Below, one piece after another: positions 33,722 to 50,108 of a stretch of 64,000 nt of DNA; the first letter of the stretch is position 1; the number at the start of each line of letters is the position of its first letter. Below the pieces are notes generated by a model, which ran no database searches, was not told the origin of the DNA, and saw only the letters and a list, made by a program, of their open reading frames with translations. The DNA comes from Pseudomonas grandcourensis (GTDB lineage: Bacteria; Pseudomonadota; Gammaproteobacteria; Pseudomonadales; Pseudomonadaceae): contig NZ_CP150919.1 in assembly GCF_039909015.1 (NCBI RefSeq), forward strand, positions 6,548,501-6,612,500, in the 5' to 3' direction. The translations under genes and the position numbers were made by a program.

Positions 33722-35083
33722 ATGCGCGGGGCACTATTACGCAGCGGTAAGAGCGGGTCATTCACTGCCCTCGGCGAAACAGGTCAACCGGTCTACCGGG
33801 CAGCCCTGCAATTGCGCGAAGCCATTCGCCGCAAGAACCCCGATTTGGTCGATCATCTGGCCATCCCTCAAAGCGATGAACTCGGCAACCAGATCGATTG
33901 GTACAGCGCCCTCGACGGTGATGTAATTCCGTGGAGCAGCGCGACCGAAGAAGAACGCGCCCCTGCCCGCCGCCAACTGGAAGCCCTCAAGACTGCGCTC
34001 GAGGAATTGAGCCAGCGTTTCCTGGGCACTGATTCCGGCGAACAGCAGCAAGGCGACAAAGCCGTGTTCGGCAAGCTGCTCAAGCGCGTCATTCATATCC
34101 CCGACGAAAACTTCGTGTACCTGGTGCAAGGCAAACCGGTGCTGACCTTTTGGGGTTTCGAGCACGCCGGAAGCGACCTCAATCGCGATCCCCTGCACTG
34201 CCTCTATCAGGTTCCGCCGCTGCCACCCGTGGTCGAAGCGCCTGTTGTTGCGCCCGTCGTACCGGTGGTGGCTCGTCCGTGGTGGCGTCGCTGGTGGTGG
34301 CTGTTGCTGCTGCCGCTCCTGCTGCTGCTTTTGTGGCTGTTGCTCGGCCTGCGAGGGTGCGTGCCGCTTCCGTTGGTGGCGGTAGACCTGCTGCCCAAGG
34401 GCGTCGTGCCAGTGGAAAAACAGCTGGAAGAGCCGCCACTGACCGGCAATGTCACGACGCTCAATGGCGTCCCCGTGACCGGCACCGTCGTAGGTGCTAC
34501 CAACGGCACCGGCACCGCCGCGACCGAAACACAGGGTGTGGAAGCGCAGGCCGTCGAAGGCAACGAGGCTGATGCAGCGCCAGCCGACCTGGCCAATGAC
34601 CCAGCCAAAGACCCGGCAGCCGAAAGCAAAACCACGCCACCCGAAAACAAAACCGCGCCGCCGGATGTCACATCGCCCGAAGCAGAAAAATCCGCCGCCG
34701 CAAAACCCGGCCCTCCCCTGAGCATCCCGCCAGACGCCGCCGACGGTGCCGCCAAGTTTCTCGATGGTCAGTACAGCGCAGGCGCCGGGATACAGGACCG
34801 CCGAACCGGTAAACCGCTGCGTCTGGAATACCAGCTCAAGGACGGTAAGGGCCAAGTCACCGTACACCAGGCCGACGGCACGAAATGCAGCGGGCCGGTG
34901 AGCGCTACTATGAAGGGTGGCAGCCTGGCCATTGACAGCCAAGGCCAGGCCGTTTGCGGCGATGGCAGCACTTACGACATGCCCAAGGTCAACTGCCGCA
35001 AAGGGGCGACCACGGTCGCGGACTGCACCGGCGGTTACGGAAAAGAACAATTCCCCATGTCCATGCGGCAAGTGGCCGAATAA
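33722..35083 (+). CDS. srfA: SrfA family single-pass membrane protein
   Basis: The 453-residue protein has a cytoplasmic domain (residues 1-160) and a proline/valine-rich linker (about 163-185). One very hydrophobic helix follows (about 190-212, after RPWWRRWWW), then a low-complexity Pro/Ala/Lys periplasmic spacer (about 240-340). A C-terminal module (about 345-453) has several cysteines and the DGKGQVTVHQADGTKCSG pattern. Salmonella srfA heads srfABC, an SsrB-regulated set; the position before SrfB and the length fit. Molecular role is unknown. TGGAG is seven bases before the ATG. It begins an eleven-gene cluster. Confidence 0.75.
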   Translation: MRGALLRSGKSGSFTALGETGQPVYRAALQLREAIRRKNPDLVDHLAIPQSDELGNQIDWYSALDGDVIPWSSATEEERAPARRQLEALKTALEELSQRFLGTDSGEQQQGDKAVFGKLLKRVIHIPDENFVYLVQGKPVLTFWGFEHAGSDLNRDPLHCLYQVPPLPPVVEAPVVAPVVPVVARPWWRRWWWLLLLPLLLLLLWLLLGLRGCVPLPLVAVDLLPKGVVPVEKQLEEPPLTGNVTTLNGVPVTGTVVGATNGTGTAATETQGVEAQAVEGNEADAAPADLANDPAKDPAAESKTTPPENKTAPPDVTSPEAEKSAAAKPGPPLSIPPDAADGAAKFLDGQYSAGAGIQDRRTGKPLRLEYQLKDGKGQVTVHQADGTKCSGPVSATMKGGSLAIDSQGQAVCGDGSTYDMPKVNCRKGATTVADCTGGYGKEQFPMSMRQVAE

Positions 35084-35100
35084 AAACGGAATAACCCGAC

Positions 35101-38100
35101 ATGTTGCCTGAAGTCACTCAATTCGAAGACACCGTCACGCTGGTCAGCGACACCGGCATCCAGTTCATGGATTTCGCCCTGCGCCTGGATCCCCGCAAGG
35201 AACCGGCGGGCGAGTTCGCGCCGATGATCAGCGGGCTGATCTGCCGCCTGGCGTACAACGAAGAGAAAGACTTCTTTTTCTACGAGCCCGAACCGGAAAA
35301 GGTCGAAAAAGCTAAACCTGCGTTCAGCGTCGACATGAAAAGCAGCCTCGATTTGCTCGACGGTATCTGGCTGCCGACCCCATTTTTCCGCTTCATGCCG
35401 CCGCATCGCTTCGACGAAGGCCCGACCAACTGGTCGCGCATGCGCTTGGTGAAACTGGCGACTCCCGACATCGACGGTAACACCCACCGCCTGACGATGG
35501 CGTTCGACAGCCGTGTGATGCCCAAGCGTGACGGCACTGCTTATCTGGCGCCAAACGAAGAAGACATCAGCTCCGGCGTGTCTTTCAAACTGGCGACCAA
35601 GGCCAGCGAAACCCGCTGGTTCCTGGCGCAGCCGTGGGTCAACGAGTGGTTGCTGGAAGTGTTCAACGAGGGCAATGCCCACCGTTCGCGCGCAGAGTTG
35701 GACATCGATATCCGCGCCAACTATCACCTGGCGCACTACCTCAACTTGCTCAGCCTGTTGAGCAAACCGTCGGCGGCCCAACAATCGACGGCCCGGGCGA
35801 AAGTTGAAATCCCCGAGCTGAAAGTGGTCGCCAACGACAGCAATGGCCTGGTCAAACCGATTCCCGTGGACCTGGTGCTGGACGTCGGCAACTCGCGCAC
35901 CTGCGGCATCCTGATCGAAAATCACGGTCAGGCCGGCTCCGGGCTGAAGCAGAACTACGTGCTGGAACTGCGCGACCTGATCACCCCCGAACACACCTAC
36001 AACTTGCCGTTCGAAAGCCGCGTTGAATTCGCCCAGGCGTACTTCGGCAAGGACCACTGCTCGGTCAAGAGCGGCCGTCACGATGCGTTCCAATGGGCGA
36101 CGATTGCCCGTGTCGGCAATGAGGCCAGCCGTCTGGCCAGCCGTCGTCGCGGCACCGAAGGCTCCACTGGCCTGTCCAGCCCGAAACGCTATCTGTGGGA
36201 CGAAAACGCCTATGGCCACGGCTGGCGTTTCAACTGCTCGTACATCAAGACCGACAACGAGCCGTACGCCACCGCAGCGCCGTTCTCACATCTGATCAAC
36301 GAAACCGGTGAGGCGCTGTACAGCCTCGAGGAAGACGATCGTCTGCCTGTGTTCATGCCGCGTTATTCGCGCAGCTCGCTGATGACCTTCATGCTCGCCG
36401 AAGTGCTGGCCCAGGCGCTGTCGCAAATCAACAGCCCGGCCCAACGCTCGCGTCAGGGGCACACCCGCGTGCCGCGCCAGCTCAACAGCATTACCCTGAC
36501 CGTGCCGCCGGGCATGCCACAGGCAGAGCGCAGCATCCTCAACGAACGCATGCTGCAAGCCATCGGCCTGGTGTGGAAAAGCCTCGGCTGGCATGCCGGC
36601 GAGGAAGATCCACATCAGGATCAGGCCGTCAGCCCGCGCACGCCGATTCCGAGTATCCGCGTGGAATGGGACGAAGCGTCCTGCGGCCAGTTGGTGTACC
36701 TGTACACCGAGGTCAACGAGAACTTCGCCGGTCACCCGGAGGAGTTTTTTGACACCATCGCCCGGCCGGACAAGGCCGACCGCCAACGCATCACCCTCGC
36801 GACCATCGACATCGGCGGCGGCACCACCGACCTGGTGATCACCGACTATCGCCTCGACCGCGCGGGTAATACCGGCAGCGGCAGCAACGTGCACATCGTG
36901 CCCGAACAGCGTTTTCGCGATGGCTTCAAAGTGGCCGGCGACGACATCCTGCTGGACGTGATTCAGGACTTCGTCCTGCCGAGTTTCGAAAAAGCCTTGC
37001 AGAACGCTGGCGTGAAAGCCGCGGATTCGCTGATGTCACGTCTGTGTGGCGATGAATCGGTCAGCGCCCAGGACATGATCCTGCGCCAGCAATTGAACCT
37101 GCAGGTGTTCGCACCGCTGGGTCTGGCGCTGCTCAAGGCGTACGAGCATTACGATCCGCAGGTCCCGCAAGAAGTCACCCCGCAAAGCTACCGCCAATTG
37201 CTCGGTGACAACGCAATCAGCCAGACCGTGCTCGACTACGTCAATGCCGCCGTGCGTCGCGATGTCGGCGGTCAGAGCGGTTTCGACCTGTATACCGCGC
37301 CGATCAGCTTCGACCTGCAAAAGCTCCACGCCGCGTTCCTCAACGACCAGATCAACATCACCAAGATCCTTGGTGCGCTGTGTGAAGTGGTCGCGCATTA
37401 CCCGTGTGATGTCTTGCTGCTGACCGGCCGCCCTTCGCGCCTGCCCGGCATCCAGGCGTTCATTCGCAAGGTGTTGCCGCTGCCACCGGGGCGCATTCTG
37501 GCGCTGCAAAACTACCGCACCGGCGGCTGGTATCCGTTTCACAAGAACGGCCGGATCGACGACCCGAAAAGCACCGCCTCGGTCGGCGCCATGCTCTGCC
37601 TGTTGTGCGCCAACCACAGCGTGCCGAACTTCTACTTCCGGGCATCGGCGCTCAAGCCGTATTCGACGGTCAAGCACATCGGCGTCATCGACCTGAACAA
37701 CGTAATCAAGGATGCCGACGTGCTGTACCGCGACATCCAGTCCGAAGACTACAAAATAAAGCTGCCGGAAATCGGCACGGGCGACGCCGCCGACACGCCA
37801 CAGCTTGAAATGCGCGGCGATCTGCGCCTCGGTTTCCGCCAGTTGGCCGCCGACCGCTGGGCCGCCTCGCCGCTGTACACCTTGCGGTTCACCAAGGCGG
37901 GTCGGGAGAAGTTTTCCCGCGCAATCGGTGAAAACGGCAGCGCCCCGCTTCTCAAGGTGCGGTTTGAGGTCAAACCGGCAGACAAATACACGCGCAAGCA
38001 GGATCTGGTCAGCGACCGCCTCTCGGTCCGCGACATCGAATCCAACAGCAACAACGTCAACTTCAACCCGCGCAGCGACCTCGAGCTGGAACTCAACACC

Positions 38101-38166
38101 ATGCTCGACGCCGGCCTGAGCGAGACCAAGTACTGGCTCGACAGTGGAAGTGTGAAACGCAAATGA
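35101..38166 (+). CDS. srfB: SrfB family actin/Hsp70-like ATPase
   Basis: The 1021-residue cytoplasmic protein carries the actin/Hsp70 nucleotide motifs. Phosphate-1 is Asp261-Val-Gly-Asn-Ser-Arg-Thr-Cys-Gly; phosphate-2 is Asp570-Ile-Gly-Gly-Gly-Thr-Thr-Asp577; the adenosine motif is around residues 771-783 (VLLLTGRPSRLPG). A 260-residue N-terminal region precedes the ATPase core. It matches the family called virulence protein SrfB (PF07520). Assembly into filaments or a chaperone-like cycle are both possible. It begins 17 bases after srfA and overlaps srfC by four bases, so SrfB and SrfC are probably made together. Confidence 0.88.
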   Translation: MLPEVTQFEDTVTLVSDTGIQFMDFALRLDPRKEPAGEFAPMISGLICRLAYNEEKDFFFYEPEPEKVEKAKPAFSVDMKSSLDLLDGIWLPTPFFRFMPPHRFDEGPTNWSRMRLVKLATPDIDGNTHRLTMAFDSRVMPKRDGTAYLAPNEEDISSGVSFKLATKASETRWFLAQPWVNEWLLEVFNEGNAHRSRAELDIDIRANYHLAHYLNLLSLLSKPSAAQQSTARAKVEIPELKVVANDSNGLVKPIPVDLVLDVGNSRTCGILIENHGQAGSGLKQNYVLELRDLITPEHTYNLPFESRVEFAQAYFGKDHCSVKSGRHDAFQWATIARVGNEASRLASRRRGTEGSTGLSSPKRYLWDENAYGHGWRFNCSYIKTDNEPYATAAPFSHLINETGEALYSLEEDDRLPVFMPRYSRSSLMTFMLAEVLAQALSQINSPAQRSRQGHTRVPRQLNSITLTVPPGMPQAERSILNERMLQAIGLVWKSLGWHAGEEDPHQDQAVSPRTPIPSIRVEWDEASCGQLVYLYTEVNENFAGHPEEFFDTIARPDKADRQRITLATIDIGGGTTDLVITDYRLDRAGNTGSGSNVHIVPEQRFRDGFKVAGDDILLDVIQDFVLPSFEKALQNAGVKAADSLMSRLCGDESVSAQDMILRQQLNLQVFAPLGLALLKAYEHYDPQVPQEVTPQSYRQLLGDNAISQTVLDYVNAAVRRDVGGQSGFDLYTAPISFDLQKLHAAFLNDQINITKILGALCEVVAHYPCDVLLLTGRPSRLPGIQAFIRKVLPLPPGRILALQNYRTGGWYPFHKNGRIDDPKSTASVGAMLCLLCANHSVPNFYFRASALKPYSTVKHIGVIDLNNVIKDADVLYRDIQSEDYKIKLPEIGTGDAADTPQLEMRGDLRLGFRQLAADRWAASPLYTLRFTKAGREKFSRAIGENGSAPLLKVRFEVKPADKYTRKQDLVSDRLSVRDIESNSNNVNFNPRSDLELELNTMLDAGLSETKYWLDSGSVKRK

Positions 38167-40874
38167 ATGACCTGACCCCCGATCAAACTCAGCTCTCTGC
38201 CAGTTGGGCCGCTGTTTATGAAGGCGCCGGTCAGGCGCTGGACTGGATAGGCCAGACGCGCGGCAATGCGCCGCGTCTGGACAGCGAAGCCGACAACCTG
38301 AACATCCGCCTGCATCGCGCCCGCAACCTGGCCCAAAGCCTCGGTCGCGTGGCCTGTACGCCGATGACCATTGGCTTTTTCGGCTTGTCCCAGGCCGGCA
38401 AGTCCTACCTGATTTCGGCCCTCGCCGCCGGTCAGAACGGCAAGCTGGAAACCGATTTCGGCGGCCAGCACCTGGACTTCATAAAGCACATCAACCCGGT
38501 GGGTGGTGGCAAGGAGGCCACCGGCCTGGTGACGCGCTTCAGCCGTCGAGCGACGGAAAGTCAGGATAAGGACTTCCCGGTAGAACTCACGTTGTTCAAG
38601 GAAATCGAGCTGGCGAAGATTCTCGCCAATGCCTGGTTCAAGGATTTCGACCTTGAGCGGATTTCCTACGAGATCGATGAAGAGCGCATCCAGCGCGTGC
38701 TCAAACCGTTCGAAGGTCGCGAAACCGGGCCGCTGCAAACGGGGGTCAATGCCGACGATCTGGTGTCGCTGTGGGATTACCTGCGCGACAACTTCCGCAA
38801 CTCGGTGAAGAAGCTTGAGTACCTGTACTGGCCCAAAGCGTTGCAACTTGCGCCACGCCTGAACTTCCAGGAACGGGCCGAGCTGTTTTCGATCCTCTGG
38901 GGTGAGCAAAGCGAGTTGACCCGCGCGTACCAGCAACTGGCCGGCGCGTTGCACAGGCTGGGTCTGCCCGAGACCGTGTTCGCACCATTGAAGGCCTTGG
39001 TGAGTTTCGAAAACGACACCTACAGCCAGCGCGACAGCATCATGAACGTCGACATTCTCGAACGCTTCGGCAGTCCGCTGGACTTGCCGATCGATGTTCG
39101 ACCGCTGGTTGGCGATCGCCTGCAAAACAGTCAGGCGATTGCGGTCGCGCAACTGGCGGCACTGACCGCCGAAATGACCTTCCGCCTGATCGAAGCGCCG
39201 GTGGATGACATCGTTAATCAGGTCGACCTGCTGGATTTCCCCGGTTATCGCGGGCGCCAGAAACTGCACGAGATCGCCGATGTCAACGACCCGCAATCCA
39301 CCGCCAAGGACAACTCCGTTTCCCAGCTGATCCTGCGCGGCAAGGTCGCTTACCTGTTCGAACGCTACACCGACAACCAGGAAATGAACGCGCTCGTAGT
39401 CTGCACAGGCTCGACCAAGCAGAGCGACGTCAACGACGTGGGCCCGGTGCTGACCCGCTGGATCGAAAAGACCCAGGGCGCCGACTCGGCTGCTCGCAGC
39501 AAACGCGACACCGGTCTGATCTGGGCGCTGACCATGCTCGACCTGCGCATCACCAACTCCCTGAGCCTGACACCGGATCAGTACGACGAGAGCTGGAACG
39601 GCATGGTCAAGCTGACCATGCTGGAGCGCTTCGGCAGCTTGAGCTGGATGAACGACTGGGCCGGCACACCGTTCCAGAACACCTACCTGGTGCGCAAACC
39701 GCGTATGGACGCGGCGTTCATCGGGCAGGACGCGACCGGTGCGGAAACCGGCCTCAATGCCATCTATCAGGAACGTGTCAGCGCGCTGGGCACCAGCTTC
39801 GCCAGCAACGCTCTGGTGTGCAAACACATTAAGAACCCGGCCAACGCCTGGGCAGAAATGCTGCGCAACGATGACGGTGGCATCAGCCACTTCAGCGGCA
39901 GCTTCAAAGGCGTGGCCAATATCGAATTCAAATTGCAGCGTATCCGCGAGCAATTGAGCGAATGCCTCGAGGGCCTGACCACTCACGGTCTGAGCACCTG
40001 GTACCACGCTGACGACGACGGCGCCGCAGCCGCCAAGAAAGCCAAGGCGCAAATGATTCTGACGGGCCTGGGCCGTCGCCCGGCGGTACTTGGCGAATTG
40101 ATCGATCAACTCGACATGCCGAGCGAAGAGGTGCGCGACCTGTACCTCAGCGGCGTGTACGAAACCGATGACGAGCCGGCCGTGAACGACGAACCGGTCG
40201 CCCCGACACCGAGCCAGAGCCTCTACGGAAACGACGCCGGTTTCGATTTCGATTTCAGTGACGACCTGAGCCACGACGCGCCAGTCAGCAACAAAACCGG
40301 CACCCCGGCGCCCGAGCTGCAAAGCAACGAGCACCGTTTTGCCAAAGCGGCCTTCAAGGCCTGGATTGCGCACCTGCGTGAACTGACCACCCGGCAAAGC
40401 CTGCTCAACCTCCTGGGGTTGGAAAAAGCATTGCTGGAAGCGGTGGTCGACGAACTGATCACCGCCGGCTATCGCCAGGACTTGCCGGGGCAACTGAGCC
40501 GCGCAGTCCTCAAACGCGCACAAAGCGGCGCGCGGCGCGATCAACTGGTCGAGCGCCAGGTCCTGGAAGTGCAACGGGTGCTGCGCGATTTCGTGTCCTG
40601 GTTCGGCTACCTGCAGAAGCCGGTGAGCGAGCGTCCGAACAGTCGCGCCGGAGCCAAGGCGCCGCTGTTCTCGTTCTACACCGATATTGGCCCGGGACAA
40701 GTGCCCGTGCTGCCAGCGCAACCGGCGAATCAGGCACAGCGCTATCTCGGCGACTGGCTCTCTGGCCTGGCCTACATTACGCAGGACAATGCCGGCCATG
40801 GCGCCGGGCGCGAAATTACCCCTGAACAGAACGAACGGCTGGGCCAAGTGCTCACAGCCTTCACAGCGAGATAA
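38163..40874 (+). CDS. srfC: SrfC family large GTPase
   Basis: The 903-residue protein belongs to the putative virulence factor family PF10139. It has a P-loop at residues 74-81 (GLSQAGKS), a probable switch I threonine in KEATGLVT (about 118-125) and a DxxG motif at Asp358-Phe-Pro-Gly361. An unusually long insertion thus separates G1 and G3. The TGSTKQSD stretch (about residue 417) may stand in for the base-recognition motif. A helical C-terminal half follows. The layout resembles dynamin-like or large envelope-associated GTPases. There is no membrane segment. The ATG overlaps the srfB stop. Confidence 0.85.
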   Translation: MNDLTPDQTQLSASWAAVYEGAGQALDWIGQTRGNAPRLDSEADNLNIRLHRARNLAQSLGRVACTPMTIGFFGLSQAGKSYLISALAAGQNGKLETDFGGQHLDFIKHINPVGGGKEATGLVTRFSRRATESQDKDFPVELTLFKEIELAKILANAWFKDFDLERISYEIDEERIQRVLKPFEGRETGPLQTGVNADDLVSLWDYLRDNFRNSVKKLEYLYWPKALQLAPRLNFQERAELFSILWGEQSELTRAYQQLAGALHRLGLPETVFAPLKALVSFENDTYSQRDSIMNVDILERFGSPLDLPIDVRPLVGDRLQNSQAIAVAQLAALTAEMTFRLIEAPVDDIVNQVDLLDFPGYRGRQKLHEIADVNDPQSTAKDNSVSQLILRGKVAYLFERYTDNQEMNALVVCTGSTKQSDVNDVGPVLTRWIEKTQGADSAARSKRDTGLIWALTMLDLRITNSLSLTPDQYDESWNGMVKLTMLERFGSLSWMNDWAGTPFQNTYLVRKPRMDAAFIGQDATGAETGLNAIYQERVSALGTSFASNALVCKHIKNPANAWAEMLRNDDGGISHFSGSFKGVANIEFKLQRIREQLSECLEGLTTHGLSTWYHADDDGAAAAKKAKAQMILTGLGRRPAVLGELIDQLDMPSEEVRDLYLSGVYETDDEPAVNDEPVAPTPSQSLYGNDAGFDFDFSDDLSHDAPVSNKTGTPAPELQSNEHRFAKAAFKAWIAHLRELTTRQSLLNLLGLEKALLEAVVDELITAGYRQDLPGQLSRAVLKRAQSGARRDQLVERQVLEVQRVLRDFVSWFGYLQKPVSERPNSRAGAKAPLFSFYTDIGPGQVPVLPAQPANQAQRYLGDWLSGLAYITQDNAGHGAGREITPEQNERLGQVLTAFTAR

Positions 40875-40877
40875 GCA

Positions 40878-41891
40878 ATGCCAATTCGTGTCGACCTGCT
40901 CGCGTTAGAGCCCAATGTGCCTGGCCAGGCCCGCCTCACTGTGAAGAAATGGCAGGGTGGCGAGGAACAGCTGGAGTTTTCCATTCAGCGTAACCAGGAC
41001 GGCTTTTACCTCCAGGACCACAAGGCCTGGAGCAACAATCCATTCTGGTTCAAGGTCTCGCGTTTCAACGTCACGGCCAGCGGCGAAGGCCTGGAAGCGC
41101 AGGTCGGCCCGGACGTGGTCGACCCGCTGCTGGAAGGCGGCGCCAACTCGCAATTCCAGATTGAACTACGCGAACAGAGCCAAGGGCATGCAGACAAAGG
41201 CGTGGTTCGGCCCGGCGTTGGTGTGCTGCCGTCCACGGCCGGCGGCCAGACGCGCTCGACCTACGGCGGCGCCGATCTGACGGCGCCGAGTGCACCGGCA
41301 CCGGAAACCCCGGAGCTGCCTGAACTGGTCCTGTCCACCGCCGAGCCAGAAGTGGAATTGGAGTCGGTACTCACCGAGCCCGACTACACGCCACCTCCCG
41401 CACCGGTGAAGAAAAGCAACAAAGGCCTGATCGGTCTGTTGATTGTGGTGTTGCTGCTGGCGGCTGGCGCAGGATTCTGGTTCTACAAACGTCCCCCGGC
41501 CCCTGCGGTTGCAGCCACTGCCGCCGCACCGGCCGGCGCTGACACTCAAGCCTGCACCCTCGACAGCATGAACAGCCTGCCCGAGTTGACCTTCGTCCAG
41601 ACCTGCATCAAAGCGGCACCCGACAGTGCCAGGTTGCTGGAGATCATCAACCAGGCCAAGGCCGGCAAACACTGCGGCGTCGCCCAGCGCCTGTACGCCA
41701 ACCGTGCCCAGGCCGGTGACGCGCTGATCGCCAACGCCTATGCCCGCGAATACGACCCTAAATACCTGAAGGCCAGCGAGTGCTTCCCGGCTGCGGACAA
41801 TGCCACCGCCGCCTACTGGTATGAAACCATCCTCACCCAGGACCCGAACAACGCCGAAGCCAAGCAGCGTTTCGAGGAGTTGCAGAAGTGA
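40878..41891 (+). CDS. Single-pass membrane protein with periplasmic helical domain
   Basis: The 337-residue protein has a soluble beta-rich N-terminal domain (residues 1-110; MPIRVDLLALEPNVPGQARL). An acidic proline-rich linker follows (about 130-178), one membrane helix (about 182-202), then a periplasmic domain with TPR/Sel1-like helices (about 225-337) and four or so cysteines. I do not recognise a named family. Its topology copies that of SrfA and of the last gene of the cluster. It starts three bases after srfC and shares a TGATG with the next gene. Confidence 0.75.
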   Translation: MPIRVDLLALEPNVPGQARLTVKKWQGGEEQLEFSIQRNQDGFYLQDHKAWSNNPFWFKVSRFNVTASGEGLEAQVGPDVVDPLLEGGANSQFQIELREQSQGHADKGVVRPGVGVLPSTAGGQTRSTYGGADLTAPSAPAPETPELPELVLSTAEPEVELESVLTEPDYTPPPAPVKKSNKGLIGLLIVVLLLAAGAGFWFYKRPPAPAVAATAAAPAGADTQACTLDSMNSLPELTFVQTCIKAAPDSARLLEIINQAKAGKHCGVAQRLYANRAQAGDALIANAYAREYDPKYLKASECFPAADNATAAYWYETILTQDPNNAEAKQRFEELQK

Positions 41892-43882
41892 TGCGTTCGC
41901 CCATGAGTCGATTCCTGCTGAGCAGTGCCGCATTACTGGTGCTGTGCATCTGCCCGCTGTCCCAGGCCGCTGACAAACCGCTGATTCAGGCCGGTAAAAA
42001 GACCCTGTTCCAACGTGTGCTAACCACGCCCGGCTGCAAAACAAGCCCGACAGCGGGCGGTGCCGAAGGTGACGCACAACCGGTTTTCAGCCGCTTTTAT
42101 GTATACGAGCGCGCCCAGGCAAACAACGCCGAGTGGCTGAAAGTCGGCCCCGACAGCTACGGCAAAACCATTGGCTGGCTGCCTGCCAGCTGTACCACCG
42201 ACTGGAAGATGCAACTGACTCTGGCCTTCACCAACCCGGCCAACCGCGACCGGTTGCTGTTCTTCAAGGACCGCGCCACCGTCGAAGGTATCCTCGATGC
42301 GCCGGACCCGGTCAGCAAAGTCGCGCCACTGCGGGCCACGCTGAAAAAGGGCAAACAAGCACCGGGCGTACTGGCTGAAGAACCTGAATACTTCGTCGAC
42401 CTGCAAAAGCAGTTCTACCTGCTGCCGGTGCTCAGTGGCGAAGAAGTCATGACCGAAAGCGGTTTCCGCACGCGCCTGCTCAACGTCGCCTCCGTCAGCA
42501 AGCCGGATGACAAGAACGCCAAAGGTGGTGCTGCAAACAGCGCTGCCGGCGGCAAGGAAGCCGAAGAGAAAAAGGCCAACCAGCTGAAGGAATTCAGCGC
42601 GGCCGTGGTATTTGTCATCGACTCGACGATCTCGATGGACCCCTACATCGACCGCACCCGCGAGGCGATCCGCAAGGTTTACCAGAAGGTCGAAGCGCAG
42701 AATCTCGGCAAACAGGTCAAGTTCGGCCTGGTGGCTTTCCGCTCCAACACCCAGGCGGTGCCGGGGCTGGAATACACCACCAAGATGTACGCCGACCCGA
42801 CACAGGTGAAAGACAGCGCCGACTTTTTCGCCAAGATCGCCGACCTCAAGCAGGCCACCGTGTCGAGCAGCAGCTTCGATGAAGACTCGTTTGCCGGCGT
42901 CATGGAGAGCATCGACAAGGTCGACTGGAGCCAGTTCGGCGCGCGCTACGTGGTGCTGATCACCGACGCGGGCGCCATCGAAGGCGACGACAAACTATCG
43001 AAGACCGGTTTGAGCGCCGCGCAGGTGCGTATGGAGGCCGCCAACCCGGGCGTGGCGATTTACACCCTGCACCTGAAAACCCCGGCCGGGTCCAAGGACC
43101 ACGCCAAGGCTGAAGCGCAATACAAGAACCTGTCGACTTACCCAGGCACCAACACCTCGCTGTACTACCCGGTGAACGCTGGCGATGTGCAGGAATTCGG
43201 GCGCAAGGTTGACGCCTTGGCCGGGGCGATCACTACACAAGTCAAAGCCGCCTACATGGGCGAAGACGCCATCGGCAGTGCGGCGAACGCCAAGCAGGAC
43301 CCGGCCGAGAAAAAAATGCTCGAAGACGCGGCGCTGATCGGCCACGCCATGCAACTCGCCTATCTCGGCGAGAAGACCAACAGCAAAGCCCCGCCAGTGT
43401 TCAAGGCGTGGATCACCGACCGTGACCTGATCAAGCAGAACATCCCGACCACCGACGTGCGGGTGCTGCTGACCAAGTCACAGCTCAGCGACTTGAGCGA
43501 CGTGATGAAGCAGATTCTCGATGCCGCCAACGAAGGCCTGATTTCACCCACGGAAATGTTCGATCGCCTGCGTTCCGTGGCGGCGACCATGGGCGCCGAT
43601 CCCAATCAGCTCAAACAGAACAGCAACGCCAAACTGGCGGACATGGGCGTCCTCGGTGAATACCTCACAGACCTGCCCTATCAGAGTGAAGTGCTGAACC
43701 TGGATGAAGAGACCTGGAAGAGCTGGGATGGTCTGGCACAAGAAAAATTCATCCGCACGCTGAACACCAAACTGCGGCATTACCAGCGTTACAACGCCGA
43801 TGTCGACCGTTGGGTAGCTTTAGCCAAAGACAGCGATGCACGGGACAACGTCTACCCCGTGCCACTGGAAATGATGCCTTAA
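41891..43882 (+). CDS. Secreted von Willebrand A protein, PpkA periplasmic-domain-like
   Basis: The 663-residue protein has a signal peptide (MRSPMSRFLLSSAALLVLCI then a cleavable tail to about residue 26) and an SH3-like N-terminal domain (about 30-110) with the YVYER...WLKVG...IGWL pattern. A VWA domain (about 238-440) has the site Asp244-Ser-Thr-Ile-Ser248, a variant of the usual Asp-x-Ser-x-Ser, and VVLITDAG further on. The SH3-plus-VWA layout resembles, from memory, the periplasmic half of the T6SS kinase PpkA, but no kinase or membrane anchor exists here. GAGGAG precedes the overlapping TGATG start. An in-frame GTG at 41888 is an alternative. Confidence 0.8.
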   Translation: MRSPMSRFLLSSAALLVLCICPLSQAADKPLIQAGKKTLFQRVLTTPGCKTSPTAGGAEGDAQPVFSRFYVYERAQANNAEWLKVGPDSYGKTIGWLPASCTTDWKMQLTLAFTNPANRDRLLFFKDRATVEGILDAPDPVSKVAPLRATLKKGKQAPGVLAEEPEYFVDLQKQFYLLPVLSGEEVMTESGFRTRLLNVASVSKPDDKNAKGGAANSAAGGKEAEEKKANQLKEFSAAVVFVIDSTISMDPYIDRTREAIRKVYQKVEAQNLGKQVKFGLVAFRSNTQAVPGLEYTTKMYADPTQVKDSADFFAKIADLKQATVSSSSFDEDSFAGVMESIDKVDWSQFGARYVVLITDAGAIEGDDKLSKTGLSAAQVRMEAANPGVAIYTLHLKTPAGSKDHAKAEAQYKNLSTYPGTNTSLYYPVNAGDVQEFGRKVDALAGAITTQVKAAYMGEDAIGSAANAKQDPAEKKMLEDAALIGHAMQLAYLGEKTNSKAPPVFKAWITDRDLIKQNIPTTDVRVLLTKSQLSDLSDVMKQILDAANEGLISPTEMFDRLRSVAATMGADPNQLKQNSNAKLADMGVLGEYLTDLPYQSEVLNLDEETWKSWDGLAQEKFIRTLNTKLRHYQRYNADVDRWVALAKDSDARDNVYPVPLEMMP

Positions 43883-43892
43883 AGAGACGCCA

Positions 43893-44594
43893 ATGCTCGA
43901 TATCAAGAACCTGCTGGTGCGCCGTGGTGAAGGCGCACAGGCCCATCACGTGCGACTGCCGCACTTGCAGGTCGGCGCCGGAGAAATCCTCGCCATCACC
44001 GGCGAGAGCGGCAGTGGCAAAAGCACGTTGCTCGAAGCCATCGGCCTGTTGCTCGCACCGGTGGAACTCGAGCGCTTTCGGCTGGGCCCGACGCACGCTC
44101 AGGATATCGCCCAACTGCTGGCCACTGACGACCAGCCTGCTCTTGCAGCGGTGCGTTCACGACATTTGGGCTTCATTTTGCAGAGCGGCGGCTTGCTGCC
44201 GTTCCTGAGCGTGCGAGACAACATCAGCCTGCCGCGCCGTTTGCTCGGGATGCCGGTGAAGAGCGATCACATCGACCACGCCGTTGACGTGTTGCGCCTG
44301 CAAGGGTTGCTGGATAAACAACCTCAGGCCTTGTCGATCGGCGAACGCCAGCGCGTGGCCTGCGTTCGGGCAATTGCCCATGAACCGCTGCTGCTGTTGG
44401 CCGACGAGCCGACCGCCGCGCTCGACCCTCTCAGTGCCCGGCGTTTGTTCGAGCTGCTCCTGAGCCTGGTGTCGAGCATGGGCCTGAGTGCACTCGTTGT
44501 ATCCCATGACTGGGCCTTGCTGAAGGATTTCGGCTTGCCGCGACTCGGCGCTATCAGCCATCAGGGGGAGACTCTGTTTGAACCGATGGACTGA
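43893..44594 (+). CDS. ABC transporter ATPase, LolD/MacB/TagT-like
   Basis: The 233-residue ATPase has Walker A GESGSGKST (residues 37-45), signature LSIGERQR in place of LSGGQ, Walker B LLLLADEPTAALD and a switch His in VVSHD. It is of the type that pairs with FtsX-fold permeases, which transmit ATP-driven motion through the membrane instead of moving a substrate through a pore. It overlaps the permease by 17 bases. Position between the VWA gene and the permease matches tagT after ppkA. Confidence 0.87.
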   Translation: MLDIKNLLVRRGEGAQAHHVRLPHLQVGAGEILAITGESGSGKSTLLEAIGLLLAPVELERFRLGPTHAQDIAQLLATDDQPALAAVRSRHLGFILQSGGLLPFLSVRDNISLPRRLLGMPVKSDHIDHAVDVLRLQGLLDKQPQALSIGERQRVACVRAIAHEPLLLLADEPTAALDPLSARRLFELLLSLVSSMGLSALVVSHDWALLKDFGLPRLGAISHQGETLFEPMD

Positions 44595-45801
44595 ACGCTT
44601 GCACCTGCTGGGTTCACTGGCGCTGCAAGACCTCTGGCACGACCGTAAGGTCTCGCTGTGCATCGCCGCCTCCCTGGTGGCGGTGATCGCGCCGTTGCTG
44701 CTGCTGTTTGGGCTCAAACACGGGGTGGTCAGCCAGCTGCAGGACGAACTGCTGCGCGACCCGCGCAACCTTGAAGTGAAGATGCTCAGCAACGGCAACT
44801 ACGACACGGCCTGGATCGAGCGTTTGCGCCAGCGCCCCGAGACCGGTTTTGCCCTCGGCCAGACCCGCTCTCTCAATACCCAGGCTGACCTGCTGATCGG
44901 CATGCAACGGTTTGTTGAAGGCGCGGAAATCATCGCCACTGAGCCCGGCGACCCACAACTGAACCTGGCGCCACTCAACCCCGTCGGCAATCAAGTGATC
45001 CTCAGCGCCAGTGCAGCGCAACGCTTGCAGGCCAAGGCCGGCGACAGCGTGCAGCTGCGGGCCTTGCGCCGCCTGGAAGGTGTCAATGAACGCGGCGAGA
45101 TGACGCTGACGGTACTGGCCGTGCTCGACGGTGCCCGTTTCGGTCGCGCGGCCGGGTTTGTCGCCCCGCCGCTGCTGCTGGATCTGGAGCGCTTTCGCGA
45201 CGGTTATCAGGTCAGTGGGTTCGGCGTTGACACCGGCAAGCCTCAGGGTAATCTGCAACCGCTGTATGCCCGCGCCCGCGTGTATGCGCGCGACATTGAT
45301 CAGGTCGCGCCGCTGGAACGCTGGCTCAACGAACAACACATCGAAACCTCGAGCCGGTTGGCCGACATCGACAACGTCAAAGCCATCAACCATGTGCTGG
45401 GGCTGATCTTCGGTGTGATCGCCGCGGCGGCGCTGATCGGCTGCGTGGCATCGATGGTTGGCGCGTTCCTGGCCAACATCGACCGTAAACGCAAAAGCCT
45501 GGCGGTCCTGCGTCTGCTGGGTTTCAAACGCAGGGCCGTCGGTGGTTTCGTGATTCTGCAAGCCCTTGCGCTGAGCCTGGCCGGCTACGTTGGCGGGCTG
45601 GGGTTTTATGCCGTTGGCAGTCATTTGTTCGACTACTTGCTCGGCAGCAGTCGGGCCACCGGTACCTTTGTTTGCCACATCACTGTTTGGCATGGCCTGG
45701 CCGCCCTGCTCCTGACCTTTTTGGTCGCTGCATTGGTGGCCATGATTGGTGCCCTGCGAGCCATCAACATCCAACCTGCGGAGAGTCTGCGTGAGCTATA
45801 A
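44578..45801 (+). CDS. FtsX-like ABC permease, TagS/LolC-like
   Basis: The 407-residue inner-membrane protein has one N-terminal helix (about 22-46), a large periplasmic domain (about 50-270) and three C-terminal helices with the FtsX core. The cytoplasmic coupling segment KSLAVLRLLGFKRRAVGGF and the end INIQPAESLREL are present. This is a single fused subunit of the type VII ABC class (LolCDE, MacB). The start is TTG at 44578 inside the ATPase gene, so translation is coupled. The periplasmic domain is the likely contact with the SUMF1 protein encoded next. Confidence 0.87.
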   Translation: MNRWTERLHLLGSLALQDLWHDRKVSLCIAASLVAVIAPLLLLFGLKHGVVSQLQDELLRDPRNLEVKMLSNGNYDTAWIERLRQRPETGFALGQTRSLNTQADLLIGMQRFVEGAEIIATEPGDPQLNLAPLNPVGNQVILSASAAQRLQAKAGDSVQLRALRRLEGVNERGEMTLTVLAVLDGARFGRAAGFVAPPLLLDLERFRDGYQVSGFGVDTGKPQGNLQPLYARARVYARDIDQVAPLERWLNEQHIETSSRLADIDNVKAINHVLGLIFGVIAAAALIGCVASMVGAFLANIDRKRKSLAVLRLLGFKRRAVGGFVILQALALSLAGYVGGLGFYAVGSHLFDYLLGSSRATGTFVCHITVWHGLAALLLTFLVAALVAMIGALRAINIQPAESLREL

Positions 45802-47335
45802 ACGTTTTGGCTTGCTGTTGCCCCTGAGCCTCGGCTACATGCTCGACGCCTCGGCGGCGGGCTGGGAAGAGAAGTATTACAACCCGATGCCCGAGGCTGG
45901 CGACGTCGTGCTGCCGATGCCCTGCGAAGGCTCGATGGTATTTCGCAAGGTGTTCATTCCGGTCGCCGGTCCGCTGGACGACTACCCGATCAACATCGGT
46001 CAGGACGGCGCGGAATACGGCTACGTCGAACAGACCCGTCCGACCTTTATCGCCGGCAGTTTTACCGGGGCCAAGAACGACAAATCCCGCTACTACCTGA
46101 TGGCCAAGTACGAGATGAGTCAACTGCAATACGCCGCGCTGACCGAAGCAACCTGCCCCACCGCCGCCACCAAGATGCGCTTGCCGCAAACGGCGGTGAG
46201 CTGGGTGCAAGCCATCGAAGCCGCCGACAAGTACAACCTGTGGCTGCGCAAAAACGCCGCCGGCAAGCTGCCCAAGGAAGACGGCGCGCAAGGCTTTCTG
46301 CGCCTGCCAACCGAAGTCGAGTGGGAGTTCGCCGCGCGCGGCGGGCTGGAAGTCGGTGCCGCTGAATTCCGCGACACGCACTACCCGATGCCAGAAGGCA
46401 TCAACGCCTACGAGTGGTTTGCCGGGGCGCAATCGTCCAACGGCAAAGTGCAATTGACCGGTCTGCAAAAGCCCAACCCGCTGGGCCTGCATGACATGCT
46501 CGGTAACGTCGACGAAATGATGTTCGAGCCGTTTCGCCTGAACAAACTCGACCGCCAGCATGGTCAGGCCGGCGGCTACGTCGTCCGCGGCGGCAACTAC
46601 CTGACCGCGCAGGCCGACCTGCGTACGGCATTGCGTAAAGAAGAGCCGTATTACAACGCCGAAGGCCAGGTGAAAAACAAGACCACCGGCCTTCGCTTGG
46701 TCATGGTCTCACCGACCCTCACCTCTCGCGAGCGGGTCGCCAGCATCGAAAGCAGCTGGAAGAAACTCGGCACCGGCAGCAAGGAAGCCGAATCCGCCGA
46801 CAAAGGCACCGTACAATCCCTGAACAGCCTGGCCTCGGGCGTCGAAGACAAAGCGCTCAAGGAAAAACTCCAGGCCCTGGAAAACCAGCTGCGTGCCAGC
46901 AACCAGCAGCAGGAAGAAACCCGCGACCAGGCGATTCGCGCCAGCCTCAATCTGGGCGCATTCTTGTGCACCAAGATGCTCGACGACGGCCAGTACGTGG
47001 ACTTCCTGCAAAAGAACTACAAGCTCAACTGCGAAAGCGCGGACAAAGATGCCAGTTGCGACATGCGTAAAACCAAGCTCGACGAGCAGAAGGATCGCCT
47101 GCACAAACTCAGCCGTTACTACGCCAGCAGCCTGGTGGAATCGGCAACCTTGTACGGCCAGCCACTGCTTGAAACGCAAGTCCCGGTAATGGAAGAAATC
47201 ATCAGCCGCAACAAACAGCTGCAAGACCTCAAACCTTACTTGCGCACGCACTGGGCCAATCAGAAGGCGTTTCTGCAAAAGCAGAAAATCGATACTGAAG
47301 CCTGGCTGAACAGCTGCAAAACCGTTACTCAATAA
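45791..47335 (+). CDS. Periplasmic SUMF1-fold protein lacking catalytic cysteines, TagR-like
   Basis: The 514-residue protein starts at a GTG overlapping the permease stop by 11 bases; its signal peptide (VSYKRFGLLLPLSLGYMLDA then SAA) begins there, while the upstream ATG lies inside the permease. The formylglycine-generating-enzyme fold spans residues about 60-310: RLPTEVEWEFAARGG from 171, GLHDMLGNVDEM near 232, RGGNYLT at 266-272 and a final GLRLV. In active enzymes the last block carries two cysteines; here Thr272 and non-Cys residues replace them, so it is a pseudoenzyme or binding domain. A long coiled-coil region follows (about 340-514). Its position matches tagR. Confidence 0.87.
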   Translation: MSYKRFGLLLPLSLGYMLDASAAGWEEKYYNPMPEAGDVVLPMPCEGSMVFRKVFIPVAGPLDDYPINIGQDGAEYGYVEQTRPTFIAGSFTGAKNDKSRYYLMAKYEMSQLQYAALTEATCPTAATKMRLPQTAVSWVQAIEAADKYNLWLRKNAAGKLPKEDGAQGFLRLPTEVEWEFAARGGLEVGAAEFRDTHYPMPEGINAYEWFAGAQSSNGKVQLTGLQKPNPLGLHDMLGNVDEMMFEPFRLNKLDRQHGQAGGYVVRGGNYLTAQADLRTALRKEEPYYNAEGQVKNKTTGLRLVMVSPTLTSRERVASIESSWKKLGTGSKEAESADKGTVQSLNSLASGVEDKALKEKLQALENQLRASNQQQEETRDQAIRASLNLGAFLCTKMLDDGQYVDFLQKNYKLNCESADKDASCDMRKTKLDEQKDRLHKLSRYYASSLVESATLYGQPLLETQVPVMEEIISRNKQLQDLKPYLRTHWANQKAFLQKQKIDTEAWLNSCKTVTQ

Positions 47336-47369
47336 CAATGCGTCAAAACCGTTACCTAGGAGTTTCACC

Positions 47370-48107
47370 ATGTCGCGCAGCCTTTGGACTCGCTTCAAGC
47401 TACAGATCGCTTTCGTAGTCGCCGGCAGCCTGCTAATGACCGGTTGCGCCAATACCGGCAGCTCTATGCTCGGCGAAGGCGGCGGCGACGGTGCCGACCC
47501 GCGCCTGACCCAGGGCAATGACGCAGAGTTCTTCAGCAAGTCCGGATACCAGGCCTGCGCCGTCGGCGCCGGAGTCGGCATCCTCGCTTGCGCGCTGTCC
47601 AACAGCAACAACAAAACCGTGTGCGTCATCGCCGCCGGTATTACCGCATGTGGCGTGGCCATGGGCGCCAACTATTACCTGGATCAACGTCGCAGCGAAT
47701 ACGCCGACACCACCACCCGTTTGGCGAAGATGAACAGCGACGTCCAACAAGACACGCAGAACGTGATCGCCCGTACCGCGACCGCTCAACAAGTGATCAA
47801 TGATGACCAGGCGCAAATTGCCCAGATCAAAAAGGACATCGCCAACAAGAAAGTCGACAAGAGCAGGGCTCAGGCGCAAATCGCCGGGATCGATTCGGAC
47901 ATCGCGCGCCTGCGTAAAGACCTCGCCAACATGCGTACCAAAGTCACCGAGTACAGCAAAGTGGCAGACGCCGAGCGCGCACAAGGCACCAGCGCCGAGA
48001 TGAAGCAGGTAGACATGAACATTCAGAAAATGAACCATAAAGTCGTCAGCCTGCAGAAGGAAGTCGACGCTCTGTACAGCCAACGATCCGCAATCACCCT
48101 GGGCTAA
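47370..48107 (+). CDS. Coiled-coil lipoprotein
   Basis: The 245-residue protein has a lipoprotein signal with lipobox LMTGC (lipidated Cys26). A Gly/Ala/Cys-rich hydrophobic segment follows (about 60-105: AVGAGVGILACAL and IAAGITACGVAMG), which may be a glycine-zipper. Two coiled-coil stretches make up the rest (about 110-165 and 175-240). After Cys26 comes Ala, which favours the outer membrane under the usual +2 rule. It takes the place of TagQ, the outer-membrane lipoprotein of the T6SS module, but I see no clear sequence match. AGGAG precedes the ATG. Confidence 0.78.
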   Translation: MSRSLWTRFKLQIAFVVAGSLLMTGCANTGSSMLGEGGGDGADPRLTQGNDAEFFSKSGYQACAVGAGVGILACALSNSNNKTVCVIAAGITACGVAMGANYYLDQRRSEYADTTTRLAKMNSDVQQDTQNVIARTATAQQVINDDQAQIAQIKKDIANKKVDKSRAQAQIAGIDSDIARLRKDLANMRTKVTEYSKVADAERAQGTSAEMKQVDMNIQKMNHKVVSLQKEVDALYSQRSAITLG

Positions 48108-48111
48108 GCAC

Positions 48112-48618
48112 ATGACGCTAAGACAACTGATGGTCATCACTGCCGTCCTGGCCCTGAACGGTTGCGCGGCCAAGCCTGGCGAATGCGATGCGACCAATCG
48201 CGACAGCAGCATGCTGACCAAAATGAACTGCGACTACTCCGGTGGTTACAGCGATCAGGTCAAGCAGAATGAACATGCCCTGAGCGAGTCCCGTCAGCAA
48301 AACGCAATGTTCCGTCAGGTGTACGAGAACATTCAGGCCCAACAACTCAGCACCAAGACCGATCTGGCCAGCCAGCAGAAATCCCAGGCGGCGCTGAATC
48401 AGTCACTGGCGCAACTGCTGACCTCGCTCAAGGCCCGGCGTGGCAATGAAGCCCAGGTGCAGAAGCAGATTGCCGACCTCGAGCGGCAGCTCAAGGCTCC
48501 GCAAGCGGCGCCAACGACCAAATCAACGCCCGCAACGCTGGCGGCCAAGCAGCAAGAGCTGAAAACATTGCAGAAGAAGGTCAATCAGCTGCAATTCAGC
48601 CTCGGCTACGAAGAGTAA
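48112..48618 (+). CDS. Second coiled-coil lipoprotein
   Basis: The 168-residue protein has the lipobox ALNGC with lipidated Cys18 and Ala at +2. A Cys-containing segment follows (GECDATNRDSSMLTKMNC), then a long coiled coil (about 45-165; QNEHALSESRQQN and later QKQIADLERQL). It starts four bases after the previous lipoprotein gene with no good ribosome site, so it probably depends on reinitiation. It could form a complex with the first lipoprotein. No family name is known to me. A hairpin terminator follows. Confidence 0.75.
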   Translation: MTLRQLMVITAVLALNGCAAKPGECDATNRDSSMLTKMNCDYSGGYSDQVKQNEHALSESRQQNAMFRQVYENIQAQQLSTKTDLASQQKSQAALNQSLAQLLTSLKARRGNEAQVQKQIADLERQLKAPQAAPTTKSTPATLAAKQQELKTLQKKVNQLQFSLGYEE

Positions 48619-48628
48619 CTTTTCACCC

Positions 48629-48660
48629 CGCAAGCATCCCGATGGATGCCTGCGCTTTTT
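48629..48660 (+). terminator. Intrinsic terminator inside the srf cluster
   Basis: An 11-base stem (cgcaagcatcc / ggatgcctgcg, one mismatch) around a cgat loop is followed by c and T5. It begins 11 bases after the second lipoprotein gene and ends 15 bases before the last VWA gene, so it should reduce read-through into that gene. Confidence 0.75.
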
Positions 48661-48674
48661 CAGGAATCGTCGTC

Positions 48675-50108
48675 ATGCAGCGGGTCATCAGGGATGCGCA
48701 CGCCACATCGGAGGGGATGAGTGCGCTGCAAGCCAAAGTCGCCCTCATCCAGAAACACTTTCCGCCGACCGTCGCCAGTCTGTTTGCTATCCCGCGGATG
48801 GGCAGCGGCGACGTGCTGGAATGGTGGACCGAACTGGGTGGCCAACCCACGCCCTATGCTGACCTCAACGAGGACGCGCAACGACGTTTGCTGGAAACCT
48901 ATGAAGTACGTCAGACGTCCCTCGGACTGCTGGCGGATGAACTGCAAAAACGCGGTCAACCGACGGTAGCAGATGACCTGCGCAGCCTGCTCGGCACGCC
49001 TGAGCTGGACAAACTCTACAGCCTCAACGGTGAGCCATTGGTGGTGCGCTGGAACCAGCGCCCGCCCAAGCCGATCGTGCCGCCGGTCGTGCCGGTCGTG
49101 CCGCCATCGCGTCGTGGCTGGTGGATCGCGGCGGCTTTGCTCGCGCTGCTGTTGCTGCTTCTGGCGCTGTGGCTCTGGTGGTTCCTGCACCGTGAGCCGG
49201 TTGTCGTGGTTCCGCCTGTAGCGCCTGTGGCGCCGGTGGTGACGCCGGTTGAGAAACCGGTTGAGCCTGTCCCCGAGCCTGTCGTGGAACCGGAACCCAC
49301 GCCAGAACCGGTACCGGAACCCAAGCCGGTCCCGCCACCAAAACCGGCACCGGAACCCAAGCCGATCCCGCCACCCAAACCGGTTCCACCACCAAAACCG
49401 GTAGTGGCTACCCCGCCACCAGCCCCAACGCTGGACAACTTCGCATGCCGTAAAAATGCGCCGAACGCAGAGGTCCCGCAATTCGTGGTGGTGCTCGACA
49501 CCTCGGGTTCGATGGATTTGAACATCAAGTCAGTGAAAGCCGACGAGGACTGGTTCTTCGGTCCCGACCTCAACAAGCTCCTGGACCCGAACCGCACCAT
49601 GCGGCTCACCGCCAAACCCAGCCGCATGGACGTCGCCAAGGACTCGCTGGCCAGCATGATCAACGGGCTGGACCCGAAGATCGACACACGCCTGATCACC
49701 TTCGCCGGCTGTGAAAGAACACCGGACCGGGGTGTGTTCAAGTTCGGCGACCGCCCGCGGCTGATCAACGGGATTCGAGGTCTGGTTCCCGACGACGGCA
49801 CACCGCTGGCCGACAGCCTGGCCCGCGCGGCGAGTACCGTCGACGGGCGCAATAACGATGCGGTTATCGTGATGTTTGTCGACGGAGAAGATGGTTGCGG
49901 GCAGGACGTTTGCGCGGTATCCCGTCGAATCGCCAGGGAACAACCGCGCCTGCGGGTCAACGTGGTGAAAATCGGTGCTGGCGGCCCGTCACGCTGCATC
50001 GCTGAAAACACCGGCGGCCGGGTTTACAACAGCACCAATGCGGCTGAGTTGAGTAACCAGTTGAAACAGGCGAGCAAGGAAGTATCCAGCAGTGCCAAGT
50101 GCGATTAG
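48675..50108 (+). CDS. Membrane-anchored von Willebrand A protein
   Basis: The 477-residue protein has a cytoplasmic domain (1-140), a Pro/Val linker, one membrane helix (about 147-172), a long Pro-Lys-Glu repeat spacer (about 175-255) and a C-terminal periplasmic VWA domain (about 265-470). The metal site is canonical, Asp275-Thr-Ser-Gly-Ser279, and VIVMFVDGEDGCG follows. The cytoplasmic end (LNGEPLVVRW) resembles that of SrfA (VQGKPVLTFW). I chose the ATG at 48675 with CAGGAA upstream; another in-frame ATG at 48642 falls inside the terminator hairpin. It ends the cluster. Confidence 0.83.
   Translation: MQRVIRDAHATSEGMSALQAKVALIQKHFPPTVASLFAIPRMGSGDVLEWWTELGGQPTPYADLNEDAQRRLLETYEVRQTSLGLLADELQKRGQPTVADDLRSLLGTPELDKLYSLNGEPLVVRWNQRPPKPIVPPVVPVVPPSRRGWWIAAALLALLLLLLALWLWWFLHREPVVVVPPVAPVAPVVTPVEKPVEPVPEPVVEPEPTPEPVPEPKPVPPPKPAPEPKPIPPPKPVPPPKPVVATPPPAPTLDNFACRKNAPNAEVPQFVVVLDTSGSMDLNIKSVKADEDWFFGPDLNKLLDPNRTMRLTAKPSRMDVAKDSLASMINGLDPKIDTRLITFAGCERTPDRGVFKFGDRPRLINGIRGLVPDDGTPLADSLARAASTVDGRNNDAVIVMFVDGEDGCGQDVCAVSRRIAREQPRLRVNVVKIGAGGPSRCIAENTGGRVYNSTNAAELSNQLKQASKEVSSSAKCD

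Follow-up and report, generated by a model that had tools for sequence, protein, structure and literature searches.

We analysed a window of 64,000 nucleotides from the 6.76 Mb genome of Pseudomonas grandcourensis (contig NZ_CP150919.1, positions 6,548,501 to 6,612,500 of the forward strand), in which the genes srfA, srfB and srfC are joined to homologues of TagQRST-PpkA, the sensor of the type VI secretion system (T6SS). Positions 33722-50108 of the window hold eleven open reading frames (ORFs) in a nearly gapless run on the plus strand. Neighbouring genes overlap by 4 to 17 bases or are separated by gaps of 3 to 34 bases, counting the SUMF1-fold gene from its probable GTG start at 45791 (the mechanical ORF is open from 45746). 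The ORF map thus agrees with the first-pass annotation, made from the letters alone, which had described eleven tightly packed genes on one strand. A promoter scan yielded no sigma-70-like site. The genes are as follows, with orientations across the membrane being the probable ones and TM denoting a transmembrane segment.

33722..35083, plus strand, SrfA: NF040486 at 434.9 bits (cut-off 150); cytoplasmic N-terminal domain, TM 192-210, periplasmic linker and small C-terminal domain.
35101..38166, plus strand, SrfB: PF07520 at 1356.6 bits; Hsp70-like ATPase by predicted model, presumably cytosolic.
38163..40874, plus strand, SrfC: PF10139 at 1028.1 bits; dynamin-like GTPase by predicted model, presumably cytosolic.
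40878..41891, plus strand, G4: cytoplasmic domain at about 1-125, Pro-rich linker, TM 184-202 and periplasmic TPR/Sel1-like domain.
41888..43882, plus strand, VWA1: exported, with a signal-peptide-like start; kinase-less homologue of the periplasmic part of PpkA.
43893..44594, plus strand, TagT-like ABC ATPase: ABC_tran over cut-off; 44-48% identity to TagT.
44578..45801, plus strand, TagS-like FtsX-type permease: FtsX at 46.7 bits; four predicted TM; 35-38% identity to TagS.
45791..47335, plus strand, TagR-like SUMF1-fold protein: PF03781 (FGE-sulfatase) at 108 bits; 29-31% identity to TagR; presumably periplasmic.
47370..48107, plus strand, Lip1, TagQ-like lipoprotein: lipobox, glycine-rich segment and coiled coil.
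48112..48618, plus strand, Lip2, second small lipoprotein: lipobox-like LNGC at residues 15-18 and coiled coil.
48642..50108, plus strand, VWA2: SrfA-like cytoplasmic domain, TM 164-182, Pro-rich linker and periplasmic VWA domain with DTSGS (VWA_2 at 36.3 bits).

SrfA, SrfB and SrfC are adjacent and score above their curated cut-offs; the FtsX and FGE-sulfatase matches likewise exceed theirs. Topology (TM, signal-like starts and lipoboxes) was read from a simple hydrophobicity scan, which found no N-terminal hydrophobic stretch in SrfB or SrfC. The VWA domain is over cut-off in VWA2 and just below it in VWA1 (21.5 versus 23.8 bits), and the periplasmic domain of G4 gives weak TPR/Sel1 profile matches. 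Residues 27-137 of VWA2 match the SrfA profile NF040486 (E 8e-9), which indicates that the cytoplasmic domain of SrfA is repeated in VWA2. The DTSGS motif is not strict among VWA2 relatives: 6 of 25 homologues carry the strict pattern and 17 of 25 carry D-x-[ST]-x-[ST]. Profile scans assigned Lip2 to no family over cut-off, and a PHROGs scan of nine of the eleven proteins matched only the SUMF1-fold protein and Lip1, by fold or coiled coil.

The T6SS regions used for comparison came from nine of the ten genomes, among 57 from relatives, in which TagQ exceeded its cut-off, together with four further PpkA-type genomes; one region (L175) was left out of the SrfB tree, the module tree and the 12-locus comparison of VWA1 with PpkA and of Lip1 with TagQ. 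In the first five regions, identities were 37-39% for VWA1/PpkA, 44-48% for ABC/TagT, 35-38% for FtsX/TagS and 29-31% for SUMF/TagR, with E values of 2e-46 or better, and the order of the sensor genes here is the PpkA, TagT, TagS, TagR, TagQ order of T6SS loci. VWA1 aligns to the C-terminal 610-640 residues of PpkA (from about residue 360-550 to the end) at 36-39% identity in 12 of 12 T6SS loci. The kinase domain lies inside the first 255 residues in both T6SS PpkA proteins scanned, and a profile scan of VWA1 found none, as the first-pass annotation had stated. The window ABC ATPase was the best match for 10 of 10 TagT queries (162-183 bits, versus at most 112 for the 19 best-ranked ABC ATPases of its own genome), and the FtsX permease had a single other match within its own genome, a weak one.

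The assignment of Lip1 follows a different line of evidence. Against the TagQ family NF041250 it scored E 3.2e-5 and 23.4 bits, far below the cut-off of 300, while profile-profile alignment (hhalign) to 12 T6SS TagQ proteins gave 99.3% and E 1.2e-19. By the same method, Lip2 reached 14.4% against TagQ and Lip1 reached 97.0% against Lip2. Since Lip1 also matches Lip2 this well, TagQ has the least secure link among the five; Lip1 appears TagQ-like by profile, helped by its place and order. Taken together, sequence comparison indicates that the homology to the PpkA C-terminus, TagT, TagS and TagR exceeds the level of general fold. The earlier proposal of a PpkA/TagT/TagS/TagR/TagQ-like order, with homology beyond fold, is therefore upheld by pairwise identity (29-48%) for four components and by profile only for TagQ. 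The TagR-like protein lacks the FGE-type cysteine pair, with no C-x3-5-C in residues 250-340 in 74 of 74 cases.

We then assessed conservation in 83 SrfB loci, comprising the best 80 of 582 confirmed from one genome scan and three from relatives; the nearest of them belong to Pseudomonas. All four core genes were present in 74 of the 83, and in each of these 74 the order SrfA-SrfB-SrfC-G4-VWA1-ABC-FtsX-SUMF is kept on one strand. The taxa represented are Pseudomonas, Halomonas, Aeromonas, Erwinia, Pasteurella, Proteus, Gilliamella, Xenorhabdus, Alcaligenaceae and alphaproteobacteria. Pseudomonas umsongensis DSM 16611 (L021) and P. jessenii DSM 17150 (L020), neither known as a pathogen, are examples of strains with the cluster. 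The core genes are incomplete in the other nine, in L056 in part (flank ends), in L064, L066, L067, L086 and L089 at contig ends, and in L063, L092 and L093 by local absence. Accessory genes were counted within 10 kb flanks, which limit the numbers: Lip1 in 54 loci (downstream in 47, upstream in 7), VWA2 in 25 and Lip2 in 10. All eleven genes also occur in L095-L097, L152 and L167. The first-pass annotation had called for a gene-neighbourhood survey of SrfB; for these nearest loci, a distribution in which most close relatives carry SrfABC without the module does not hold. A stricter statement, that SrfABC always carries the module, is wrong, given that the 80 loci are the best of 582 and that a wider sample contains module-less loci. 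Two loci have features of their own. In Azomonas agilis (L063, 13778-20715), the stretch lacks both SrfC and the module, and type I restriction-like genes, recognized by eye, follow SrfB; in a bin named Stygiobacter (Ignavibacteriota; L084), the copy is nearest to that of Insolitispirillum, which denotes either transfer or a mis-binned contig.

The predicted SrfB model comprises an N-terminal domain (about 1-250), a nucleotide-binding domain (about 254-845) and a beta region, and it matches the Hsp70 nucleotide-binding fold and motifs; two phosphate motifs are kept in 82 of 82 loci and the third in 81 of 82. SrfB is thus predicted to be an Hsp70-like ATPase. The earlier label "actin/Hsp70-like" stands in its Hsp70 part and not in its actin part, as no row titled actin family was among the matches listed for the model, with distant kinship still possible. 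SrfC, previously called a large GTPase, has the GTPase motifs (P-loop and G3 intact in 78 of 78 surveyed loci with SrfC, all 78 also carrying the G4 gene) and can now be specified, from its predicted model, as a dynamin-like GTPase. Sequence profiles against solved structures gave no match for SrfB and only weak ones for SrfC and VWA1. A switch-I motif count was dropped, as 21 of 78 otherwise intact SrfC loci fell outside the pattern. An apparent G4-VWA1 fusion in L153, reminiscent of the kinase-TM-VWA1 layout of PpkA, was likewise rejected: the long ORF appears to be extended out of frame, and G4 has an ORF of its own there.

The sensor core also occurs outside Srf loci. Among 369 gammaproteobacterial genomes (the class sample), VWA1 was matched in 37, with E below 1e-50 (counted as strong) in 26, and four of these 26 also had SrfB. 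Of the other 22, 19 were mapped, and VWA1 stood with an ABC and/or FtsX gene and no Srf gene, some contigs being short. A SUMF1 gene lay beside the stand-alone VWA1 in one of the 19 (G149); another genome (G190) has a second, unlike locus with SUMF1. Kinase-less stand-alone modules of this kind, with a G4-like gene, VWA1, ABC and FtsX and without SrfABC, were observed at L134-L145, L147, L148 and L182-L187. The two genes flanking stand-alone modules that were scanned encode unrelated proteins (GGDEF-EAL and beta-propeller). G4 of Srf loci has the cytoplasmic domain (23 aligned); a G4 homologue was found in 16 of 18 stand-alone loci, none matching before model position 145, which corresponds to the TM and periplasmic half only. 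In a phylum sample of 398 genomes, some of which are also in the class sample, VWA1 occurred in 15: eight with SrfB, six with a frame of 1017-1189 residues (the PpkA type) and one in a further arrangement (G435).

Trees were quick maximum-likelihood trees, midpoint-rooted, and carry long-branch warnings for L151 and L166 (SrfB tree) and for L146, L171, L169 and L170 (module tree). The module tree, built from VWA1, ABC and FtsX of 58 loci (four of 62 VWA1 rows, without a separate ABC or FtsX, were left out), places the T6SS loci (9), the stand-alone loci (15) and two odd loci in one supported group each, and splits the Srf loci between one group of 30 and a deep pair (L169, L170). A further arrangement, at L171 (8520-17684) and L146, has VWA1, ABC, FtsX and SUMF1 without Srf genes and lies deep in the midpoint-rooted tree; L171 adds two lipoproteins and an S41 peptidase. 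Because the clades are separate and a kinase-less stand-alone core exists, the sensor core probably predates its use by the T6SS. The first-pass annotation had the T6SS sensing half either re-used or originating in this setting; the probable greater age of the core bears on that choice, while the root of the tree is not settled.

The wider sample also contained SrfB without the module. SrfB exceeded its cut-off in 21 of the 398 phylum-sample genomes, and 13 of the 21 lacked a VWA1 match, so the claim about close relatives holds less broadly here. Yet 12 of these 13, all from one family and carrying only SrfA-SrfB-SrfC, group in a single clade (support 100) that falls within module-bearing SrfB and has Proteus, Xenorhabdus and Silvania as neighbours; its label "enterobacterial" rests on a same-family genome with an SrfB identical to the Xenorhabdus griffiniae protein. 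Because this clade nests among module-bearing lineages, one loss of the module is the simplest and most likely reading of three-gene srfABC. In the clade, SrfB keeps its motifs with an Arg-to-His change, and SrfC retains the P-loop in 4 of 12 loci and the G3 glycine in 3 of 12. SrfC motifs are intact in eight of nine further loci outside the clade, the exception being L172, whose short SrfC has no G3. L166, the thirteenth of the module-less genomes, combines G4 with an intact SrfC, and L092 is locally alike; in L151 SrfC is intact and no G4 was observed, but the contig stops at that point. G4 is thus the closest companion of intact SrfC, and this points to its cytoplasmic domain as a candidate SrfC contact, by way of one loss event. 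The class sample held three more SrfB genomes without VWA1 (G116, G124 and G255), two of them without SrfA, SrfC or G4 nearby. The distant SrfB homologues L149 and L150 have no SrfA, SrfC or G4 nearby, and SrfB may have other partners.

Scans of the eleven proteins and of 13 others from the window detected no T6SS core, PppA or Fha family, in line with the first-pass statement that the window holds no T6SS gene. The genome itself has three TssB genes, the nearest about 2.4 Mb away, and no TagQ over the family cut-off. TssB was present in 12 of 21 genomes with Srf plus module, this one included, and absent from nine; nine of the 21 were reached through loci, so that their completeness is untold, and four of these are among the nine without TssB. 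Elsewhere, TssB was found in 5 of 19 stand-alone-module genomes, in 6 of 6 PpkA-type (kinase-fused) genomes and not in G435. Because nine of the 21 tested genomes have no TssB, the Srf-linked module does not require a T6SS.

The anatomy of the system, namely its homologies, gene order, topology signals, nucleotide motifs and co-conservation, with folds by prediction, is near certain. As to function, we propose, with a probability of roughly 0.4, a sensor of outer-membrane damage that drives a chaperone/dynamin-type machine at the inner membrane. Lip1 and Lip2, probably in the outer membrane, and the TagR-like protein would sense damage, a signal suggested by analogy with the T6SS TagQRST-PpkA pathway, for which outer-membrane damage is the stimulus (PMC11881912). 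The TagS-TagT-like ABC pair, seemingly suited to mechanical signalling and not transport, would with VWA1 relay the signal to the periplasmic face of the one-TM proteins G4, SrfA and VWA2, probably through G4, and their cytoplasmic domains would control SrfB and SrfC. These two might then assemble on or remodel the inner membrane, the simplest output being repair or reinforcement at the damaged site. This proposal draws on the homology and order of the sensor genes, the predicted SrfC and SrfB folds, and the order conserved in most surveyed loci. It also draws on the G4 cytoplasmic domain, present in the Srf version and lacking in the stand-alone one, and on the SrfC that stays intact with G4 and decays in the clade without G4 and module. 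Finally, published work reports that SrfA, SrfB and SrfC form a complex in Xenorhabdus stockiae (PMC6950479), that swarming is affected in a Salmonella srfC mutant and an srfABC deletion (PMC4219756), and that srfB silencing is listed among changes giving jumbo-phage resistance with moderate to high swimming (PMC11797060), the latter two being surface-type phenotypes.

Several other explanations were weighed. An accessory anti-phage or anti-competitor defence at the membrane is unlikely, although it fares best among them: it would fit the patchy occurrence (SrfB in 4 of 57 relatives' genomes, this one included) and the dynamin- and chaperone-like parts. Against it, PADLOC matches among ten of the eleven proteins were limited to ABC-ATPase and coiled-coil hits, 13 of 83 loci have comM close to the cluster, indicating a stable site in near relatives, and the srfB silencing cited above brought phage resistance, not sensitivity. 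An envelope transport or lipoprotein-trafficking machine of LolCDE/MacB type with ATPase and GTPase helpers is improbable. Lipoproteins are encoded beside the ABC ATPase, whose best NCBIfam matches are LolD and DevA, far below cut-offs; in the comparison with 19 own-genome ABC ATPases, however, TagT came out clearly closer, and TagR- and PpkA-like partners fit a signalling unit. More doubtful still is a role of SrfABC as a protein toxin directed at animal cells and controlled or exported by the Tag-like module. PMC6950479 describes Xenorhabdus SrfABC as cytotoxic and insecticidal, with T6SS control genes beside it, but SrfA, G4 and VWA2 have TM, SrfB and SrfC lack N-terminal hydrophobic stretches, the nucleotide sites are strongly conserved, and bearers of the system include Pseudomonas, Halomonas, Aeromonas and others that are not named as pathogens. 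Least probable is that the module still acts in trans on a T6SS, firing it by way of a kinase whose gene lies elsewhere: TssB does accompany 12 of the 21 Srf modules, but its absence from the other nine contrasts with its presence in every kinase-fused PpkA genome, the T6SS and Srf modules are separate clades, and this genome has no TagQ over cut-off.

If the damage-sensor proposal is taken further, SrfABC would be the cytoplasmic half of a response to outer-membrane damage, with a specialized Hsp70 operating a specialized dynamin at the inner membrane; the T6SS trigger would be a sister sensor whose output was swapped for a kinase, and enteric srfABC a remnant without the sensor and mostly without the GTPase. 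We hold this fuller picture tentatively, at somewhat less than even odds. SrfABC is called a virulence factor or toxin. It looks ancestrally tied to the sensor, and the well-known three-gene form looks reduced; if that form is indeed reduced, module-bearing bacteria, many of which have no known pathogenicity, are where the function should be looked for. A single sensor core feeding different outputs (a kinase with a T6SS, a chaperone with a dynamin, or none known) would exemplify the rewiring of envelope sensing, and the cluster would provide a second system for studying how TagQRST reads damage.

The cluster is flanked by a comM/yifB-type gene (30744-32237) on one side and a NorM-type MATE gene (51319-52725) on the other. 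A DUF4432 protein with a signal-like start (32244-33545, minus strand) is encoded divergently from the adjoining srfA and has a homologue in 8 of 83 SrfB loci. A BRO-N domain protein, of a domain often met in phage genes, lies at 29306-29827, about 4 kb upstream of srfA.

The pairing of SrfABC with this module is already published, and the first-pass impression that the combination was undescribed is not borne out. According to PMC3608642 (2013), srfABC, a Hap-like gene, a LigA-like gene, tagQ, ppkA and mostly tagR/tagS/tagT occur together in host-associated Deltaproteobacteria, with T6SS machinery genes in just one of them, and SrfABC function is described there as unclear; PMC6950479 (2019) mentions T6SS control genes near srfABC in Xenorhabdus stockiae in one sentence. 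The absent kinase and the mechanism are not covered in the sections seen of these papers. A literature search with subscription journals mostly outside its reach found no source proposing the present reading: SrfB with TagR returned only PMC3608642, SrfC with PpkA that paper and one seemingly unrelated title, and SrfC with dynamin seemingly unrelated titles only. What is new here is the fixed eight-gene order, the stand-alone, T6SS and Srf contexts of the core, the module loss with SrfC decay, and the predicted folds.

Among the closest known systems is TagQRST-PpkA of the H1-type T6SS, each of whose five sensor parts has a homologue in the cluster, with the gene order shared. The present cluster differs in having no kinase, a VWA1 not fused to a TM and no linked T6SS, in its extra G4, Lip2 and VWA2, and in its partners SrfA, SrfB and SrfC. 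The loci of Deltaproteobacteria (PMC3608642) and Xenorhabdus stockiae (PMC6950479), as their text and legends present them, apparently have the same neighbourhood; those passages take "PpkA" to be a kinase, regard SrfC as possibly an exported effector, and contain no folds, stand-alone core or module loss. Three-gene srfABC, of the Salmonella type by the literature, shares SrfA, SrfB and SrfC, but has no module, and its SrfC GTPase motifs are decayed in most of the 12 enterobacterial loci. Bacterial dynamin-like proteins (BDLP and SynDLP, also IniA and LeoA) share the predicted fold and G motifs with SrfC, at about 10% identity.

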